A stretch of DNA of 64,000 nucleotides from the NCBI RefSeq assembly GCF_001422245.1, contig NZ_LMMM01000007.1, forward strand, positions 62,912-126,911. Reading direction: 5' to 3'. Positions 53,723 to 59,837 of this stretch are shown here, in pieces. A model generated the notes under the pieces. The model was not told where the DNA came from, did no database searches, and saw nothing but the letters and a program-made list of their open reading frames with translations. Made by a program: the position numbers and the translations under genes. Origin of the DNA: Rhizobium sp. Leaf262. GTDB lineage: Bacteria > Pseudomonadota > Alphaproteobacteria > Rhizobiales > Rhizobiaceae. The stretch's first letter is position 1; each line of letters opens with the position of its first letter.

Positions 53723-54676
53723 ATGTCCAATGCAGTTCCGGAAACGGAAAGCAAAAGTGTCAGCACACCAAAGCAGCCGCTTGATCCCCATCTGAAAGCC
53801 CTTGAAAACGAAGCGATCCACATTTTCCGCGAGGTCGCGGCGGAATTCGACAATCCGGTGATGCTCTATTCCATCGGCAAGGATTCGTCCGTGCTGCTGC
53901 ATCTTGCGCGCAAGGCCTTCTTCCCGGGTCGTATTCCCTTCCCGCTTCTCCACGTCAATACGGGGTGGAAATTCAAGGAGATGATCGAGTTTCGCGACAA
54001 TATCGTCAAGGAATACGATCTCGACCTCATTTCCTACACCAATCCGCGTGGCGCGAGCGAAAACGTAACGCCGTTCACCCACGGTTCGGCGCTCTACACA
54101 GACATCATGAAGACGGAAGCCCTGCGTCAGGCACTCGACGCCGGCAAATTCGACGCCGCGTTTGGTGGTGCACGCCGCGATGAGGAAGCCAGCCGCGCCA
54201 AGGAGCGCATCTACTCCTTCCGCACGCCCGATCACAAGTGGGACCCGCGCAACCAGCGCCCGGAATTGTGGAACATCTATAACGGCATGGTTCGTCAGGG
54301 CGAAAGCGTTCGCGCCTTCCCGCTGTCCAACTGGACCGAAGTCGATATCTGGCGTTACATTCAGGCCGAAAACATTCCGCTCGTGCCGCTCTATTACGCC
54401 GCTGAGCGCCCCTATGTCGAACGCGACGGTATGATGATCCTGGCCGAAGACGAGCGTCTGGAACTGCAGCCGGGCGAAGAGGTCCAGCACGGTATGATCC
54501 GCTTCCGCACGCTGGGCTGCTTCCCGCTGACGGGTGCGATCCATTCGCAGGCAACGACGCTGGATGAGGTCATCTCCGAGCTAGAAATCGCCACCGTCTC
54601 CGAGCGACAGGGCCGCGCAATCGACCGCGACCAGTCCGGCTCCATGGAAAAGAAAAAGCGCGAGGGCTATTTCTGA
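53723..54676 (+). CDS. cysD: Sulfate adenylyltransferase subunit 2
   Basis: The 317-residue protein has the PP-loop SIGKDSS (50-56) and the family blocks [14 protein letters not shown] and [20 protein letters not shown]. With CysN it forms APS from sulfate and ATP. The ATG 53723 follows CCGGAG and gives the usual length; an earlier ATG 53693, overlapping the cysH stop, is less likely. The stop overlaps the cysN start. Confidence 0.95.
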
Positions 54677-56151
54677 TGACACAGAACGCAAACGCACAAT
54701 CCGCCACCATTCTGCCTTTCGTCGAGCCCGCAAGGGCCGTGCGCGACACGCGCCCGCTGCGTCTCATCACCTGCGGCAGCGTCGATGACGGCAAATCCAC
54801 ACTGATCGGCCGCCTGCTTTGGGACACCAAGGCGGTGAAGGAAGATCAGGCCGCCACGCTTCACCGCGACAGCGGCAAGCAGAACGATCTCGGCCTGCCC
54901 GATTTCGCCCTGCTGCTGGACGGTCTTCAGGCAGAGCGCGAACAGGGCATCACCATCGATGTCGCCTATCGTTATTTCGCCACCGACAAGCGCGCCTTTA
55001 TCGTTGCCGATACGCCCGGCCATGAGCAGTATACCCGCAATATGGCAACCGGCGCATCGACTGCCGATCTCGCCGTGCTGCTGGTGGATGCGCGCACCGG
55101 CATTCTCGAACAGACCCGCCGTCATGCAACGATTGCCGCCTTGATGGGCATTCGCCAATTCGTTCTGGCCGTCAACAAGATCGACCTGACCAATTACGAC
55201 AAGGCCGGTTTCGAGCTGATTGCCCACGACTTCCGCGAATTTGCGCTTTCGCTTGGCATCAAGCAGATCACGTCCATCCCTATGTCGGCGCTGAAGGGTG
55301 AGAACGTCGTTCTCTCCGGCAAACCATCCATGCCGTGGTATGAGGGCCCGACGCTGGCCGAAACGCTGGAACTGGCAACCGTTCGCACCACGCAGACCGG
55401 CGGCTTCCGCCTGCCCGTTCAGCGCGTGTCCCGTCCCGGCGAAAGTTTTCGTGGCTATCAGGGCACGGTGGCTGGCGGCTCCGTCAAGCCGGGCGACAGC
55501 GTCGTCATCCTGCCGTCGGGCATGGTGGCCAACGTCAAGCAGATCGTGACTTTCGATCTGCTTCGCAATGCTGCCGTTGCAGGCGATGCCATCACGCTCG
55601 TCCTCGACCGTCAGGTGGATGTGTCGCGCGGCGATATGATCGTCTCCATCGAAGCCCAGCCGCAGACCGGCCATGCCTTCGACGCCCAGATCGTGGCGCT
55701 TCAGCCGGGTGGCATCGAGCCTGCGAAACGCTACTGGCTGAAAAGCGGCAGCCGCCGCCAGCGCGTCAGCGTTCAGCCAACGACACAGCTGGACCTGAAG
55801 AACGGCCAGTGGCTGCCACATGCAGACACGCTGGCCATGAATGCCATCGGCAAGGTGCGCCTGTCCTTCGATGAAACGGCGATCTTCGATCCCTATGACC
55901 AGAACCGTTCGACCGGCTCGTTCATCCTGATCGACCCCGACACCAACAACACGGTGGCCGGCGGCATGATCCTGGGCAAGCGCAGTGACACGGGCAAGAT
56001 TTCGCAGGGCGAACGCGTCGTCATCTCCCTGCCCGCCGATCTCGCAGAAGCCCTGCTGGCCAGCGAGCTGCTTTCCAGCCGAAGAGACGAAATCGAACTG
56101 CGCCGCACAAGTGCAGCGACTGCGTCCCGCGTGCTGAACGAGCTGGATTGA
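54676..56151 (+). CDS. cysN: Sulfate adenylyltransferase subunit 1 (GTPase)
   Basis: The 491-residue GTPase has G1 GSVDDGKST (34-42), DTPGHEQYTRNMATGAS (G3) and NKIDL (G4), then EF-Tu-like beta-barrel domains. GTP hydrolysis drives CysD. It ends without a CysC (APS kinase) domain, which agrees with an APS-type CysH. A very strong terminator follows. Confidence 0.95.
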   Translation: MTQNANAQSATILPFVEPARAVRDTRPLRLITCGSVDDGKSTLIGRLLWDTKAVKEDQAATLHRDSGKQNDLGLPDFALLLDGLQAEREQGITIDVAYRYFATDKRAFIVADTPGHEQYTRNMATGASTADLAVLLVDARTGILEQTRRHATIAALMGIRQFVLAVNKIDLTNYDKAGFELIAHDFREFALSLGIKQITSIPMSALKGENVVLSGKPSMPWYEGPTLAETLELATVRTTQTGGFRLPVQRVSRPGESFRGYQGTVAGGSVKPGDSVVILPSGMVANVKQIVTFDLLRNAAVAGDAITLVLDRQVDVSRGDMIVSIEAQPQTGHAFDAQIVALQPGGIEPAKRYWLKSGSRRQRVSVQPTTQLDLKNGQWLPHADTLAMNAIGKVRLSFDETAIFDPYDQNRSTGSFILIDPDTNNTVAGGMILGKRSDTGKISQGERVVISLPADLAEALLASELLSSRRDEIELRRTSAATASRVLNELD

Positions 56152-56172: not shown

Positions 56173-56204
56173 AAAAGGCGCCGGTCAAAACCGGCGCCTT
56201 TTTT
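56173..56204. terminator. Strong bidirectional terminator after cysN
   Basis: AAAAGGCGCCGGT (56173-56185) and ACCGGCGCCTTTT (56190-56202) are perfect reverse complements around CAAA, followed by more T on the plus strand and with a T tract on the minus strand. It ends cysHDN and the minus-strand methyltransferase operon. Confidence 0.85.
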
Positions 56205-56227: not shown

Positions 56228-56962
56228 TTAGTCGCGCGTCAGCGTGAAATAGCGCTGGGTGGTTTCCGTGCGGTTGCGCAAGGCAGACGGGAAGGCATAT
56301 TCGCCGCAGACATCGTAGCGGAAGCCGCCTGCGATGAGCGTCTCATCGATGACGGCCTTCAATTCTGCGGTGGTTCTGTAAATGGCGTTGTAAACGTCAT
56401 CCAGTTCATCCGAGAAATGCTCTTTCAGCGTCAGACGAATATCCATGTCGGAGAGGGATTCGCGGACATAGATCTTGGCCTTCGGCGCTGCCAGCTTTGC
56501 CAGCAGCTTGAACGAGTCGAGCACCGCTTCATCGTTGAGGTAGATCATCAGACCAGTGACGACGAGCATGTCGAAAGGCGGATCGAGCTTCAGCTCTTCT
56601 ATTTTCACATAGGGGACTTCGGCAACCTGAAAGTGGACGGACCCGTTTCCGGCAGCGTCCGCATTCGCGCGCGCGATCAATTCGTCGGAGAAATCGAGGC
56701 CGAGATATTGATGGCCTGCATTGCTGTAAAATGACGCCAGCCTGCCAGCACCGCAGCCGAGCTCGACCACTTTTCCGGACTTGTCGAGCTGCGGCAGCAG
56801 GTTTTCACGCTCGAACTTGTCGCGATCCGTGGCAAGAGTAGAGCCAGCGGATTGCAGCATCACCGCATCGATGGCATTCGGCTCTTTCTTCGCACGCGAA
56901 TTGAAGAAAGTCTGAACCTGCCTGCCGTCAATGGTTTCTTTCGTGTCGTAAATTCTGCTCAT
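56228..56962 (-). CDS. Class I SAM-dependent methyltransferase
   Basis: The 244-residue protein has motif I VELGCGAGRLASFY and an aspartate-rich end of strand 2 (YLGLDFSDELI). The middle part VVTGLMIYLNDEAVLDSFKL and a C-terminal EYAFPSALRNRTETTQRYF follow. It lies last in a four-gene operon with a nucleotidyltransferase, a HAD phosphatase and a CDP-glycerol-transferase-like protein. I infer that it methylates a metabolite or sugar of that pathway, but no acceptor can be read from the sequence. It starts 34 bp after the nucleotidyltransferase stop. Confidence 0.85.
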   Translation of the reverse strand: MSRIYDTKETIDGRQVQTFFNSRAKKEPNAIDAVMLQSAGSTLATDRDKFERENLLPQLDKSGKVVELGCGAGRLASFYSNAGHQYLGLDFSDELIARANADAAGNGSVHFQVAEVPYVKIEELKLDPPFDMLVVTGLMIYLNDEAVLDSFKLLAKLAAPKAKIYVRESLSDMDIRLTLKEHFSDELDDVYNAIYRTTAELKAVIDETLIAGGFRYDVCGEYAFPSALRNRTETTQRYFTLTRD

Positions 56963-56996
56963 GCGATCCCGCTCTCGTGCTCGACTATCACGCCCA

Positions 56997-57662
56997 TTAA
57001 CCCGCGAGGGCGTGGAGGCTGAAAAGGTGAAGGTTTTCCTTGGCCAGCAACAAATCCTGCTCGCTGTCGATTTCGTAAGCGATCAATTCCTGCGTCGCCA
57101 TCGGCAGAAACTGGCGAAGTTGCTCGTAGACCGCCGTGTTGCCGATTTCCGAGAAAAACGCGTTCGGCAGCCAGGAGATATTCGCCCACTCGTATTCGGT
57201 AGGATCATCACGTCGGAAACTGGTGGCAATTCCATTCTCGACCGTGGTGAACACCGCGTCCCGCGTCTTGGTCTTGGTAATCGCCAGACGTGGCGTGTTG
57301 GGTGTGCAGGATGCGAGAAAGGCCTTGAAGCTTGCCTCCTCGATCAGCATGTCGCCATCCATGAAAAGGCAATCGCCCTTGATGTGGCGCGCACCCAGCT
57401 CGTAGCTGTGAAGCGTTGTCGTTGCGCGGAAACCGGGATTGCGCACGACCATGACATCCGGGCGGATTTTCCGGATTTCGTTGATGACTTCCTTTTCTTC
57501 AAAGCCGACGACGACGCGGACGTCTTCGACGTCGCTGAGAAGATGCAGAAGGTGGCGAAGAATCTTGACCCCTTCGACTTCCACCAGGCACTTCGGCTTG
57601 CCGTGGCCCAGGCGAGAGCCGAGACCGGCAGCTGCGATTACAGCGTGTTTAACAGGCGACAT
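56997..57662 (-). CDS. LicC/GlmU-type nucleotidyltransferase
   Basis: The 221-residue protein has the NTP-transferase signature AVIAAAGLGSRLGHGKPKCL (residues about 7-26), then LFMDGDMLIEE, which holds the metal-binding aspartates. It resembles LicC-type choline-phosphate cytidylyltransferases and related sugar-phosphate enzymes. It should activate a phosphorylated alcohol, amine or sugar as a nucleotide (CDP or UDP). Its 5' end overlaps the HAD phosphatase by 25 bp. The exact substrate is unknown. Confidence 0.85.
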   Translation of the reverse strand: MSPVKHAVIAAAGLGSRLGHGKPKCLVEVEGVKILRHLLHLLSDVEDVRVVVGFEEKEVINEIRKIRPDVMVVRNPGFRATTTLHSYELGARHIKGDCLFMDGDMLIEEASFKAFLASCTPNTPRLAITKTKTRDAVFTTVENGIATSFRRDDPTEYEWANISWLPNAFFSEIGNTAVYEQLRQFLPMATQELIAYEIDSEQDLLLAKENLHLFSLHALAG

Positions 57663-58312
57663 AAGGACTTCCCATCCAGCGCGACATAGTTTGAAACCGA
57701 CACCAGCGCATCAGGCGCGCTGTGGAGACCGGCAAAGGCGATACCGATATCGGCGACATCGAAAATCGGAATATCGTTGAAGCCATCGCCGATGGACACC
57801 AGCCTGTCGAAGCGTTCCTTCAACTCAAGTCCGGCAACGTTTTTGCGCATGACGGTATCGAGGCCGGTGATCTGGCCGTTAGCATCGGTGATCGCCGTCG
57901 AGGTGTAGAACTTGCAGTGCAGTCGCTCCATCAATGGCTGGACCCAAAGGTCCAGATTGCCGGTGACGACAAAGCAGCGCTCGACATTCTGGCGGATGAA
58001 TTCTTCGATATAGGGGTCGAATTCCACCTGGGACACGATGGATCTGATGCGATCAAGCCCTGCGCTGCGCAAAATGGCAAAGCGCAGCCGAAACGAATCT
58101 TCGAAGGGGATTGCTCCCGCCATCGTCAGTTCGGTCAGAAGCCGCATCTCAGCTTCCAGACCCAGTTCCGAGGCAATCATCGGGAGAAGTTCGGCGCGGG
58201 TGATGGTGCCGTCGAGATCGAATGCAAAAGCCGTTTGAAGCTCCTCACCCTTGAGAAGGGCGGGACTGCGTTGAAACGTCAACGTCTGGGCGTGTGTCGC
58301 CTGGCGATACAT
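57638..58312 (-). CDS. HAD-family phosphatase, SerB-like
   Basis: The 224-residue protein has HAD motif I FDLDGTITR (with the nucleophilic first aspartate), motif II VVTGNLD and motif IV SIGDGFNDIPIF, typical of the HAD-IB (phosphoserine phosphatase-like) subfamily. It would remove phosphate from a small phosphorylated metabolite in the same pathway as its overlapping neighbours. The start at 58312 is used because the family domain begins 25 residues later. Confidence 0.88.
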   Translation of the reverse strand: MYRQATHAQTLTFQRSPALLKGEELQTAFAFDLDGTITRAELLPMIASELGLEAEMRLLTELTMAGAIPFEDSFRLRFAILRSAGLDRIRSIVSQVEFDPYIEEFIRQNVERCFVVTGNLDLWVQPLMERLHCKFYTSTAITDANGQITGLDTVMRKNVAGLELKERFDRLVSIGDGFNDIPIFDVADIGIAFAGLHSAPDALVSVSNYVALDGKSLCRLLNTL

Positions 58313-58322
58313 AGGACAACCT

Positions 58323-59837
58323 TTACGTATGAATGCCGTTGAAGATGGAATCGAGAATAACGCGCGTGGCCGGGACCGGCGATGGCAGGAGGACGTTGAG
58401 CAACTCTTCCCGCTCCTCCTCAAGCTGCCATGTTTTGCCCTGCTTGTAGTCCAACGCTGCCTGCTTCATCTGCTGGAATGTGTGGACGCGATGCGCTGCA
58501 CGCTCGGCCAGACGTCCAAGCGCGTTGAAGGCGGCATGAACACCGGAGTCGATGAAAATCAAAGGCTTTCGGAAGAGATGGTATTCGGTCAGAAATGAGA
58601 CGCCATCGGTCAACATCAGATCAGATGCATCGAAGAGCTTGGCGTAGTCGCCTCGGCAGATTGTGCAATTGGGCAAATCCGACCATGACTGCTGGAACGC
58701 GTTATAGCTCTGCTGTGTCAGCACGCCGCTGCGCGGAGCAGAGTAGTCCAGCGCCGGATGCGGCTTGAAAACAAACTGGATATCAGGGCTCGAACGGGCC
58801 CATTCCAGCATATCGGCATGCATTTCATGAAAGACACCGAAACCGGCGCCGTGTACGGCCAGCGAGTGGTGCGGCGCCCAGATGACACGAAAGGTTCGAC
58901 CGTTCGGCTCTGCTAATGGCCACTCGCCTTGACCCCTTTCCTCCAACAGCCGGCCCAGCTTTGGGTAGCCGCTGAGAATGAATTTCTCCGGATCAGAATG
59001 CTGGAAAGAACGATAATAGGTCTGGGTTTGCTCGGTCTCACAAAACACCCGCCACGCCATGCGATGATAGTTCTGATCGTAATTGGCCTCGTAGGCCTCT
59101 TCCTCTTCGTTCTTCGCTTCCGGATTTGCCAATACGCCCATCCCATAGGGAACAACGCAGATACGTGCGAAGGTAATCTCATTCGTACGGAGGCCGGCGG
59201 GCACGGGCACATCCCATTGCTGCTGCCTGAAAACGACGTCTGGCTGCAGGCTGCGAAGGATATCGAGAGCGTCATAAGGCGCAACATTCATGCGCAGGTG
59301 GGGAATCCCCTGAAGATCAAGACCCTTATGAACGTCCATTTCGCCGGTAAATTCACCGCGACCCAATTGGCTGTGATTGATCGAAACGACCATGGGATGA
59401 AAACGCTCGTCATCCACCATTGCCTGGTATACGCCCACCAGAGCATCCCACATGGGAATCGACTGCACGATGAAAACCACACGGACGACCTGTTCAGTTG
59501 GCCTAATCTCCCGCAACGTCAGGTTCGAGACCTGCTTGAGGGTGTGCATCCCGACCATGAGATGTGACAGACGAGCATCAAGCTGAGAGAAGACATCCTT
59601 GGTCACGGGCAGCTTATCGCCGTCACGGGCCTTCAGGCAGGCATCGACACCTCCGATGATTTGCTCGGGAATGGACTGCTGACTCGAATGCAGAGATTGC
59701 AACAACTTCGCGATTTCGAGCTGAATTTCGCCCTGCATCTCGACCTGCTTGCTGACGACGTCCATCTGCTCACGCAAAGCATCAAGGCTCGCGGCAACGT
59801 CGGTCAACGATTGAGGCATCAAGTCGGCATCAGACAT
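58323..59837 (-). CDS. CDP-glycerol glycerophosphotransferase-like protein (TagB/TagF type)
   Basis: The 504-residue protein has an N-terminal coiled coil (about residues 10-55), then a GT-B-like domain. The C-terminal part matches TagF-type transferases: VIWAPHHSLA, FVFKPHPALDY and FDASDLMLTDGVSFLTEYHL, then RKPLIFIDSG. Such enzymes move glycerol phosphate (or ribitol phosphate) from CDP to a polymer or glycan. It heads the operon, 10 bp before the HAD gene. The donor is presumably made by the nucleotidyltransferase downstream. No signal peptide is seen, so it should be cytoplasmic or membrane-peripheral. Confidence 0.78.
   Translation of the reverse strand: MSDADLMPQSLTDVAASLDALREQMDVVSKQVEMQGEIQLEIAKLLQSLHSSQQSIPEQIIGGVDACLKARDGDKLPVTKDVFSQLDARLSHLMVGMHTLKQVSNLTLREIRPTEQVVRVVFIVQSIPMWDALVGVYQAMVDDERFHPMVVSINHSQLGRGEFTGEMDVHKGLDLQGIPHLRMNVAPYDALDILRSLQPDVVFRQQQWDVPVPAGLRTNEITFARICVVPYGMGVLANPEAKNEEEEAYEANYDQNYHRMAWRVFCETEQTQTYYRSFQHSDPEKFILSGYPKLGRLLEERGQGEWPLAEPNGRTFRVIWAPHHSLAVHGAGFGVFHEMHADMLEWARSSPDIQFVFKPHPALDYSAPRSGVLTQQSYNAFQQSWSDLPNCTICRGDYAKLFDASDLMLTDGVSFLTEYHLFRKPLIFIDSGVHAAFNALGRLAERAAHRVHTFQQMKQAALDYKQGKTWQLEEEREELLNVLLPSPVPATRVILDSIFNGIHT

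Follow-up and report, generated by a model that had tools for sequence, protein, structure and literature searches.

The four-gene operon described here lies in a window of 64,000 nucleotides (the whole stretch of Rhizobium sp. Leaf262 DNA that was analysed) and probably represents a rhizobial version of the Type A/b-type flagellin-cap pathway. We assign this reading a probability of roughly 70%, inferring the reactions, amino acid, sugar and target from sequence. A phosphothreonine-type flagellin cap is known from C. difficile and P. aeruginosa, where the cd0240-0244 and b-type clusters, respectively, serve to link an N-methylated phosphothreonine to the flagellin sugar, and the flagellin of mutants in the homologous genes loses this phospho-amino acid (PMC10714395, PMC11833859). 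The original prediction knew of no Agrobacterium pathway with exactly this set, and our literature search likewise found no description of such a gene set in Agrobacterium or Rhizobium, but the set itself had been described in the two species above. If correct, the reading places a phosphothreonine-type cap in plant-associated rhizobia, with a GT41 protein replacing the usual glycosyltransferase and with cap genes that are separate from the flagellar cluster.

The four ORFs are each intact, lie on the minus strand and run from an ATG start to a TAA stop. The head gene (58323..59837, 504 aa) encodes a putative TagF-like GT-B phosphotransferase with a helical N-terminus (residues ~1-110), followed by a PA1089/CD0241-like HAD-IB phosphotransferase/phosphatase (57638..58312, 224 aa), a PA1090/CD0242-like, cytidylyltransferase-like NTP transferase (56997..57662, 221 aa) and a PA1088/CD0243-like SAM methyltransferase (56228..56962, 244 aa). 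The first two genes are 10 bp apart, the HAD and NTP transferase genes overlap by 25 bp, and 34 bp separate the NTP transferase from the methyltransferase gene, which is exactly the packing originally proposed; the families named at that time were also recovered in profile searches (Glyphos_transf, HAD-IB, NTP_transf_3 and methyltransferase). The operon converges on an ORF that we take, by reading rather than by family search, to be cysN (54676..56151, plus strand), a fixed neighbour that marks a variable site and is context outside the pathway. An inverted repeat with a T run between the convergent ends (56173..56204, read by eye) is likely a terminator common to both. No threonine kinase was found within the operon. 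No membrane-like segment occurs in any of the four proteins (mean hydropathy over 19 residues peaks at 1.54), which speaks for a cytoplasmic set and led us to reject the idea of a membrane-anchored assembly.

In the proposed pathway, the HAD enzyme would produce O-phosphothreonine or a close amino-acid phosphate. It matches PF12710 (40.2 bits) and TIGR01488 HAD-IB (74.6 bits, cut-off 45) and is 48% identical to the HAD protein of P. aeruginosa (record NZ_CP131792). Residues D32, D34, T117, K157 and D180 are invariant in 18/18 sequences, as are E41 and R77, which align with Glu20 and Arg56 of M. jannaschii PSP, residues that we take to hold phosphoserine there by its amino and carboxyl groups. 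Phosphotransfer by this enzyme is unsupported by family models, as it scores only 29.6 and 15.1 bits against the ThrH phosphotransferase models (cut-offs 133 and 223.4) and 84.4 bits against the SerB model (cut-off 144.15). The substrate could also be an amino acid other than threonine (serine, homoserine, an aspartate-type or a D-amino acid), the pathway being otherwise unchanged, which we regard as a real but minority possibility. The genus relatives G205 and G206 carry an Asp/Glu racemase-family gene between the NTP transferase and methyltransferase genes, a racemase-family gene is also present in the Holosporales locus L087, and the cassette of G219 includes a cysteate-racemase-like gene that stays under the model cut-off (141.7 vs. 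190 bits). Set against this are the lack of a racemase in the window, the invariant HAD pocket and the use of threonine by the characterised homologous systems (PMC11833859, PMC10714395).

With threonine as the preferred amino acid, the NTP transferase would use CTP to form the activated phospho-amino acid and is thus proposed as a CDP-threonine synthase. It matches PF12804 NTP_transf_3 (48.1 bits) and is 41% identical to its P. aeruginosa equivalent in the same record. Among solved relatives, PntC comes closest in both sequence and fold, while GlmU-type matches are weaker by sequence and lie ~2 Z units lower by fold; these comparisons favour, rather than prove, CTP over UTP as substrate, and render a UTP-dependent sugar-nucleotide route less likely. 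The kinship with PntC also brings phosphonate or phosphoramidate activation into consideration (PntC-like or Campylobacter MeOPN-like), in which the NTP transferase would load another phospho-compound, and one weaker rhizobial plasmid homologue (the one examined of 54 records) adjoins a PEP mutase family gene. We judged such activation very improbable and rejected the phosphonate route, as the genome itself contains no PEP mutase over the TIGR02320 cut-off (best of four superfamily matches 142 vs. 319.55 bits) and the HAD and methyltransferase partners match the Type A set. The methyltransferase (PF13649, 42 bits; 36% identity to its P. aeruginosa counterpart in that record) would then N-methylate the amino acid. 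Phage cargo was rejected as well in a search that covered the head protein and the NTP transferase: the former had no match at E 1e-3 among 50,697 phage records, and the latter had one weak match, in a Cobetia phage.

The TagF-like enzyme would finally transfer the phospho-(N-methyl)amino acid from the CDP donor to a sugar already O-linked to cytoplasmic flagellin. The head protein lacks a GT domain and combines a GT-B fold with the Glyphos_transf signature (PF04464, 27.5 bits, cut-off 22.1); its best match among solved sequences is TarL, a weak one (E 0.011). By these two matches the head gene stays within the CDP-glycerol transferase superfamily; a match to a characterised enzyme outside it would have counted against the original prediction. 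In the fold search, TagF was not singled out and epimerases outscored it. The TagF-type phosphotransferase of the known systems (CD0244, part of PA1091) belongs to the same Pfam family, and the head protein appears related to the P. aeruginosa fusion at family level only, since pairwise comparison with the P. aeruginosa locus gave no match at E 1e-3. A contig scan of genomes with the head protein as query returned no relatives. Most of the ~110 N-terminal residues have pLDDT below 50 and are predicted helical (residues 11-53, 55-71 and 80-110), and 10 of 19 hydrophobic residues in segment 11-53 fall on two heptad positions. Owing to these helices and this clustering, the coiled coil claimed for the transferase is plausible, short of proven, while the membrane-proximal assembly attached to it found no hydrophobic stretch to rest on.

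The conservation of the gene set was assessed with a scan by two short peptide patterns, one genome per species, which is no census, as patterns this short miss divergent members. It yielded 45 loci, none of them from C. difficile or P. aeruginosa, 31 with near-full-length relatives of the NTP transferase and 14 with partial or weak matches. HAD and methyltransferase genes stand beside the NTP transferase gene in 31/31 of the former and 0/14 of the latter, some of which are short loci. A TagF domain was recognised in 30 of the 31 (27 by an HMM trained on a larger set that included seven of these loci, and L091-L093 by a match to the P. aeruginosa fusion), and none was found in L085. Homologues of the set are thus not generally scattered and the grouping is more than chance, given the 31/31 retention of HAD and methyltransferase. 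Chance packing of four unrelated genes could draw on the genus, where five of the ten genomes with the head gene lack HAD and NTP transferase orthologues; contradicted by the synteny, it was rejected as practically negligible.

The genomic neighbourhood bears on the acceptor. Flagellar genes lie near 16 of the 31 near-full-length loci compared with 1/14 of the other matches, and the other 15, nine rhizobial ones (L064-L072) among them, show no flagellar gene in the available flanking DNA. The cluster sits in a flagellar region in Rhizobium FY34 and R. oryzicola, with the order flagellin, GT41, GSCFA, a 244-aa gene, TagF-HAD-NT-MT and fliP...flgI, as well as in A. vitis, where fliF and two LuxR-type regulators (presumably visN/visR) are followed by one further gene and the operon. 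The window operon, in contrast, adjoins cysN instead of flagellar genes. Elsewhere in its genome, a GT41 gene (PF13844, 237 bits; product 50% identical to that of FY34) stands beside four flagellin genes and would be the most likely source of the flagellin sugar. Full-length GT41 is encoded in 16 of 39 genus genomes, and all ten with a TagF-like gene fall within these 16, a co-occurrence confounded by descent because 15 of them are close kin by CysN identity (91% or more; G219 alone is outside, at 84%). A different, partial GT41 match was found in 11 of the 23 other genus genomes, and in a family sample the co-occurrence held in 4/6, the misses being 35-37% relatives (G005, G072).

TagF-like enzymes decorate glycans in capsule and teichoic systems, and the same chemistry could place the phospho-amino acid on LPS, capsule or another glycan. 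The location outside the flagellar cluster, the relatives of the head gene among glycosyltransferases in Entomospira and Vibrio, and the capsule synthesis multienzymes among the fold neighbours of the head protein are in keeping with this, but the flagellar neighbours at about half of the loci, the GT41 gene beside the flagellins and, with the caveat of descent, the GT41 co-occurrence make it unlikely. A flagellin O-glycan is the more likely acceptor. Of the route originally guessed, the phosphorylated molecule, CTP activation, methylation and glycan transfer fit the PA1088-1091/cd0240-0244 models, and the generic surface glycan would probably give way to a flagellin O-glycan. For Agrobacterium sp. 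H13-3, PMC8310070 mentions glycosylated filaments as data not shown.

The cysN site itself is variable. cysN is present in 39/39 genus genomes, and a cassette lies beside it in 14 of the 16 GT41-positive ones. A TagF-like gene is part of nine of these cassettes, the other five having glycosyltransferase-type genes instead; G219 carries its TagF cassette elsewhere on the contig with cysN, and no cassette was recognised beside cysN in G120. Within 1.5 kb of cysN, the 15 genomes checked of the 23 others had other ORFs and no match to the cassette queries. A new observation is that the TagF-like kin, often at this site, differ in their partners: the putative CDP-donor modules paired with them are TagD-like, of ribitol type, of amino-acid type (some with a racemase) or of other kinds. 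Our best reading would be a swappable flagellin-capping locus, with target and chemistry deduced from the genes present. More specifically, and somewhat short of even odds, the site may be a cassette-exchange locus for flagellin caps, in which one TagF-like lineage is combined with CDP-donor modules that can replace one another (for glycerol phosphate, ribitol phosphate, an N-methyl amino acid, a racemised amino acid and others). Closely related strains would then share a sugar added by GT41 but differ in the chemistry of the phosphodiester caps placed on it. Such exchange would resemble serotype switching, and might be driven by flagellotropic phages or by the recognition of flagellin in plants. 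If partners are indeed swapped, the kin of one transferase form a natural panel for the donor specificity of TagF-like enzymes, and provide a testable account of why filament chemistry differs among closely related strains that are exposed to plant immunity and to phages binding the flagellum.

Several known systems resemble parts of this arrangement. Teichoic synthesis by TagF/TarL with TagD/TarI involves the superfamily of the head protein, whose kin have TagD-like and ribitol-type cytidylyltransferases as partners, but the CDP-glycerol/CDP-ribitol donor module of those systems, present beside homologues in other genomes, is absent among the operon genes (neither TagD nor TarI), and no polymer system was seen. 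PntC-AEPT (6pd1, 6pd2), unlike the NTP transferase here, is an aminotransferase fusion that serves phosphonates. Enterobacterial flag-2 variable region 1 also varies in the flagellin-modification genes that it carries, among them those for TagB-type transferases and TagD, but lies inside the flagellar locus, and the available text of PMC6993521 does not name the HAD-NT-MT set. The Caulobacter FlmG, a soluble cytoplasmic flagellin O-glycosyltransferase of GT-B fold that requires pseudaminic acid (PMC7591256), may by description be an analogue of the GT41 step. The C. difficile Type A cluster cd0240-cd0244 has the four families in common, by description rather than sequence, and unlike the window operon includes a GT gene, whose product acts on flagellin (PMC10714395). 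The P. aeruginosa record NZ_CP131792 has, flanked by flgL and fliC, the gene block MT-HAD-NT-TagF/GT2, which we equate by order and context with the b-type genes PA1088-PA1091 (PMC11833859). There, the GT2 and TagF domains are joined in one 1694-aa protein, the methyltransferase gene stands in front and the block lies inside the flagellar cluster, whereas in the window TagF is alone with its helical N-terminus, the methyltransferase gene is behind, and the operon sits at cysN with an unlinked GT41, a different family from the GT2 of PA1091, as the probable glycosyltransferase. Both share the methyltransferase, the HAD enzyme, the NTP transferase and a TagF-type domain, and the overlap between the HAD and NTP transferase genes is kept in the window.

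Four minus-strand ORFs, each uninterrupted from ATG to TAA, occupy positions 56228..59837; successive genes lie 10 bp apart, overlap by 25 bp and lie 34 bp apart. The original prediction of four closely packed genes for a TagF-like protein, a HAD protein, an NTP transferase and a methyltransferase agrees with these data in both family assignments and gap sizes. The head gene matched Pfam Glyphos_transf at 27.5 bits (cut-off 22.1), residues 1-110 of its product were predicted with low confidence to be helical, and no membrane-like segment was detected in any of the four operon proteins. Our literature search returned nothing on this four-gene set in Agrobacterium or Rhizobium.

A tblastn search of plasmid records with the window NTP transferase and HAD yielded a single strong record common to both queries, a Pseudomonas aeruginosa megaplasmid on which the two genes adjoin and overlap within the order flgL, methyltransferase, HAD, NTP transferase, a 1694-aa CDP-glycerol-transferase-family protein (a Glyphos_transf plus a GT2 domain), fliC, flaG and fliD. 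By gene order, context and the published account we equate this block with PA1088-PA1091, the sequence comparison having covered the megaplasmid record, not PAO1. The PAO1 cluster PA1088-PA1091 is reported to attach N,N-dimethylthreonine via a phosphodiester to a flagellin deoxyhexose (PMC11833859), and Clostridioides difficile cd0240-0244 to attach N-methylthreonine to the GlcNAc of flagellin (PMC10714395). Their authors proposed the HAD to be a phosphoserine:threonine phosphotransferase, the NTP transferase a CTP:phosphothreonine cytidylyltransferase and the TagF-like protein a phosphothreonine transferase (PMC11833859, PMC10714395); methylation was placed early in the pathway, as a proposal, in the 2025 paper. 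Activation of a phosphonate by the window NTP transferase appears very improbable to us: a PEP mutase search of the window's own genome gave four superfamily matches, the strongest at 142 bits where the model (TIGR02320) demands 319.55. We favour a flagellin-cap pathway, in which a phospho-amino acid would be placed on the flagellin sugar.

One genome per species (84,980 species) was scanned with two short peptide patterns from a six-sequence NTP transferase alignment, an approach that misses divergent members. The 45 confirmed NTP transferase loci comprised 31 near-whole-query matches (36-99% identity) and 14 partial or weak ones. At 31/31 near-full loci, HAD and methyltransferase genes were no more than roughly 1 kb away from the NTP transferase or from the HAD-NTP transferase pair, in contrast to 0/14 of the others, some of which are short. 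Judged by alignment ends, the HAD and NTP transferase genes overlap at 29/31 near-full loci, the exceptions being L078 and L073, although in L073 the overlap is present in the called ORF. A TagF domain was found in 30/31 near-full loci, and none in L085 (Odoribacter); 27 of these loci were scored by HMM (7 belonging to its training set, and L090 reaching only 4e-4), and L091-L093 were called by a match to the domain-holding region of the P. aeruginosa fusion. Two of the 14 partial or weak loci, L104 and L106, also have a TagF-type match nearby. At E 1e-8, flagellar genes lie near 16/31 near-full loci, several of them Pseudomonas kin and hence not independent, versus 1/14 (L106); E 1e-5 adds L084 to the former, and L096 to the latter only with the fleQ query, which was dropped from the count as unspecific.

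Related modules were also encountered elsewhere. On Agrobacterium plasmid pAt2 (L058, 5877-8783), a weaker NTP transferase homologue adjoins pieces of an aminotransferase and a gene of the PEP mutase family; this is probably a phosphonate module on a rhizobial plasmid. A gene of Cobetia phage Carin-5 annotated as CTP:phosphoglutamine cytidylyltransferase (L057:5992-6714) shares 25% identity with the window NTP transferase, its neighbours being glycosyltransferase, gpsA and deacetylase genes. On Vibrio alfacsensis pYa108 (L029, 195-8732), a TagF-like gene is accompanied by genes for a PEP-utilising enzyme, a gamma-glutamyl hydrolase family protein and a phosphocholine-cytidylyltransferase-type protein beside cysD-cysN; this group, again close to cysDN, resembles a phosphoramidate module of the MeOPN type.

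In Rhizobium sp. FY34 and R. oryzicola, orthologues of the operon (HAD 82 and 75%, TagF 67 and 60% identity, respectively) stand in the order flagellin, GT41 glycosyltransferase (proposed to attach the flagellin sugar; PF13844, 246 bits in FY34), GSCFA-family gene, 244-aa gene, operon orthologues, then fliP and flgI. The GSCFA-family and 244-aa genes between GT41 and TagF in these two rhizobia (L074:3836-5681) include one, the 244-aa gene, with no Pfam match. In A. vitis S00303, the operon orthologues come after fliF (PF01514, 177 bits), two LuxR-type regulators (in our reading, visN and visR) and a further gene. Contig C12 of the window's own genome carries four flagellin genes, then a GT41 (50% identical to that of FY34; PF13844, 237 bits), two LuxR-type regulators and fliF. 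By these gene neighbourhoods, the genes for the proposed sugar and cap steps are linked in some rhizobia and unlinked in the window's genome.

Among 39 genus genomes, 27 gave some GT41 match, which covered the full length in 16 of them (E 5e-227 or better), 10 carried the TagF-like gene, and 5 had full HAD and NTP-transferase orthologues. All 5 fall inside the 10, and all 10 inside the 16 (1.3e-5 on the assumption of independent genomes, which does not hold: in 15/16, CysN shares 91% or more identity with that of the window; the sole outlier is G219, at 84%). In a 199-genome family sample, 4/6 TagF-positives were among the 34 genomes that gave a GT41 match at E 1e-100 (0.008 under independence), and the other two, G005 and G072, hold 35-37% relatives.

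In 5/10 genus genomes the TagF-like gene occurs without the HAD and NTP-transferase orthologues and beside other modules: a TagD-like cytidylyltransferase in G233 (TIGR01518, 135.7 bits, below the cut-off of 165.4) and G017 (PF01467); a ribitol-phosphate-cytidylyltransferase/reductase-like fusion in G214 (NF001183, 166.9 bits, cut-off 166; IspD model 170.7 bits, below the cut-off of 181.3); asparagine-synthase-like, TagD-like and GT2 genes in G225; and two NTP transferases with DUF711, methyltransferase and racemase genes in G219. A TagD-like gene also comes after TagF in two genomes of the family sample, G054 (127.4 bits) and G169 (by eye). Each module would presumably produce the donor implied by its name. 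The genus TagF cassettes sit at cysN in 9/10 genomes, G219 being the exception. TagF proteins 80-82% identical have unlike partners, both in G233 and G017 (TagD-like) versus G214 (ribitol type) and in G225 versus G223 and G224 (amino-acid type). In the TagF tree, G214 was nested with G233 (support 93), G225 joined G223/G224 (support 100), and L076 (amino-acid type) stood beside the TagD-like group (support 98).

At cysN, another five genomes positive for GT41 have different cassettes, of glycosyltransferase type (Pfam was run on three). In GT41-positive genomes without TagF, a protein of 751-769 aa that combines Capsule_synth and methyltransferase domains lies beside a GT2 at cysN (L164:589-2844, L167:879-3188). 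The amino-acid cassettes of two genus genomes, G205 and G206, have an Asp/Glu racemase-family gene that separates the NTP transferase from the methyltransferase (L061:7805-8569, L062:10867-11643); such a gene is also present in the cassette of one Holosporales genome (L087:5148-5810), hinting at a D-amino-acid version. A short HAD fragment in G201 (L063:4848-5123; some 58% identity across 85 residues), which is not on the cysN contig, is apparently what is left of a cassette that was lost.

Swapping of donor modules by a single TagF-like lineage at a constant locus, as suggested here by a genomic pattern only, was not found in the literature searched. R. leguminosarum flagellins are reported to stain positively for glycoprotein, in a paper that also cites glycosylation in A. 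tumefaciens (PMC2936354), glycosylated filaments of Agrobacterium sp. H13-3 are mentioned as data not shown (PMC8310070), and TagB/TagD genes are described within variable flagellin-modification regions of enterobacteria (PMC6993521). We conclude that the window operon is probably a new rhizobial variant of a known flagellin-cap pathway.
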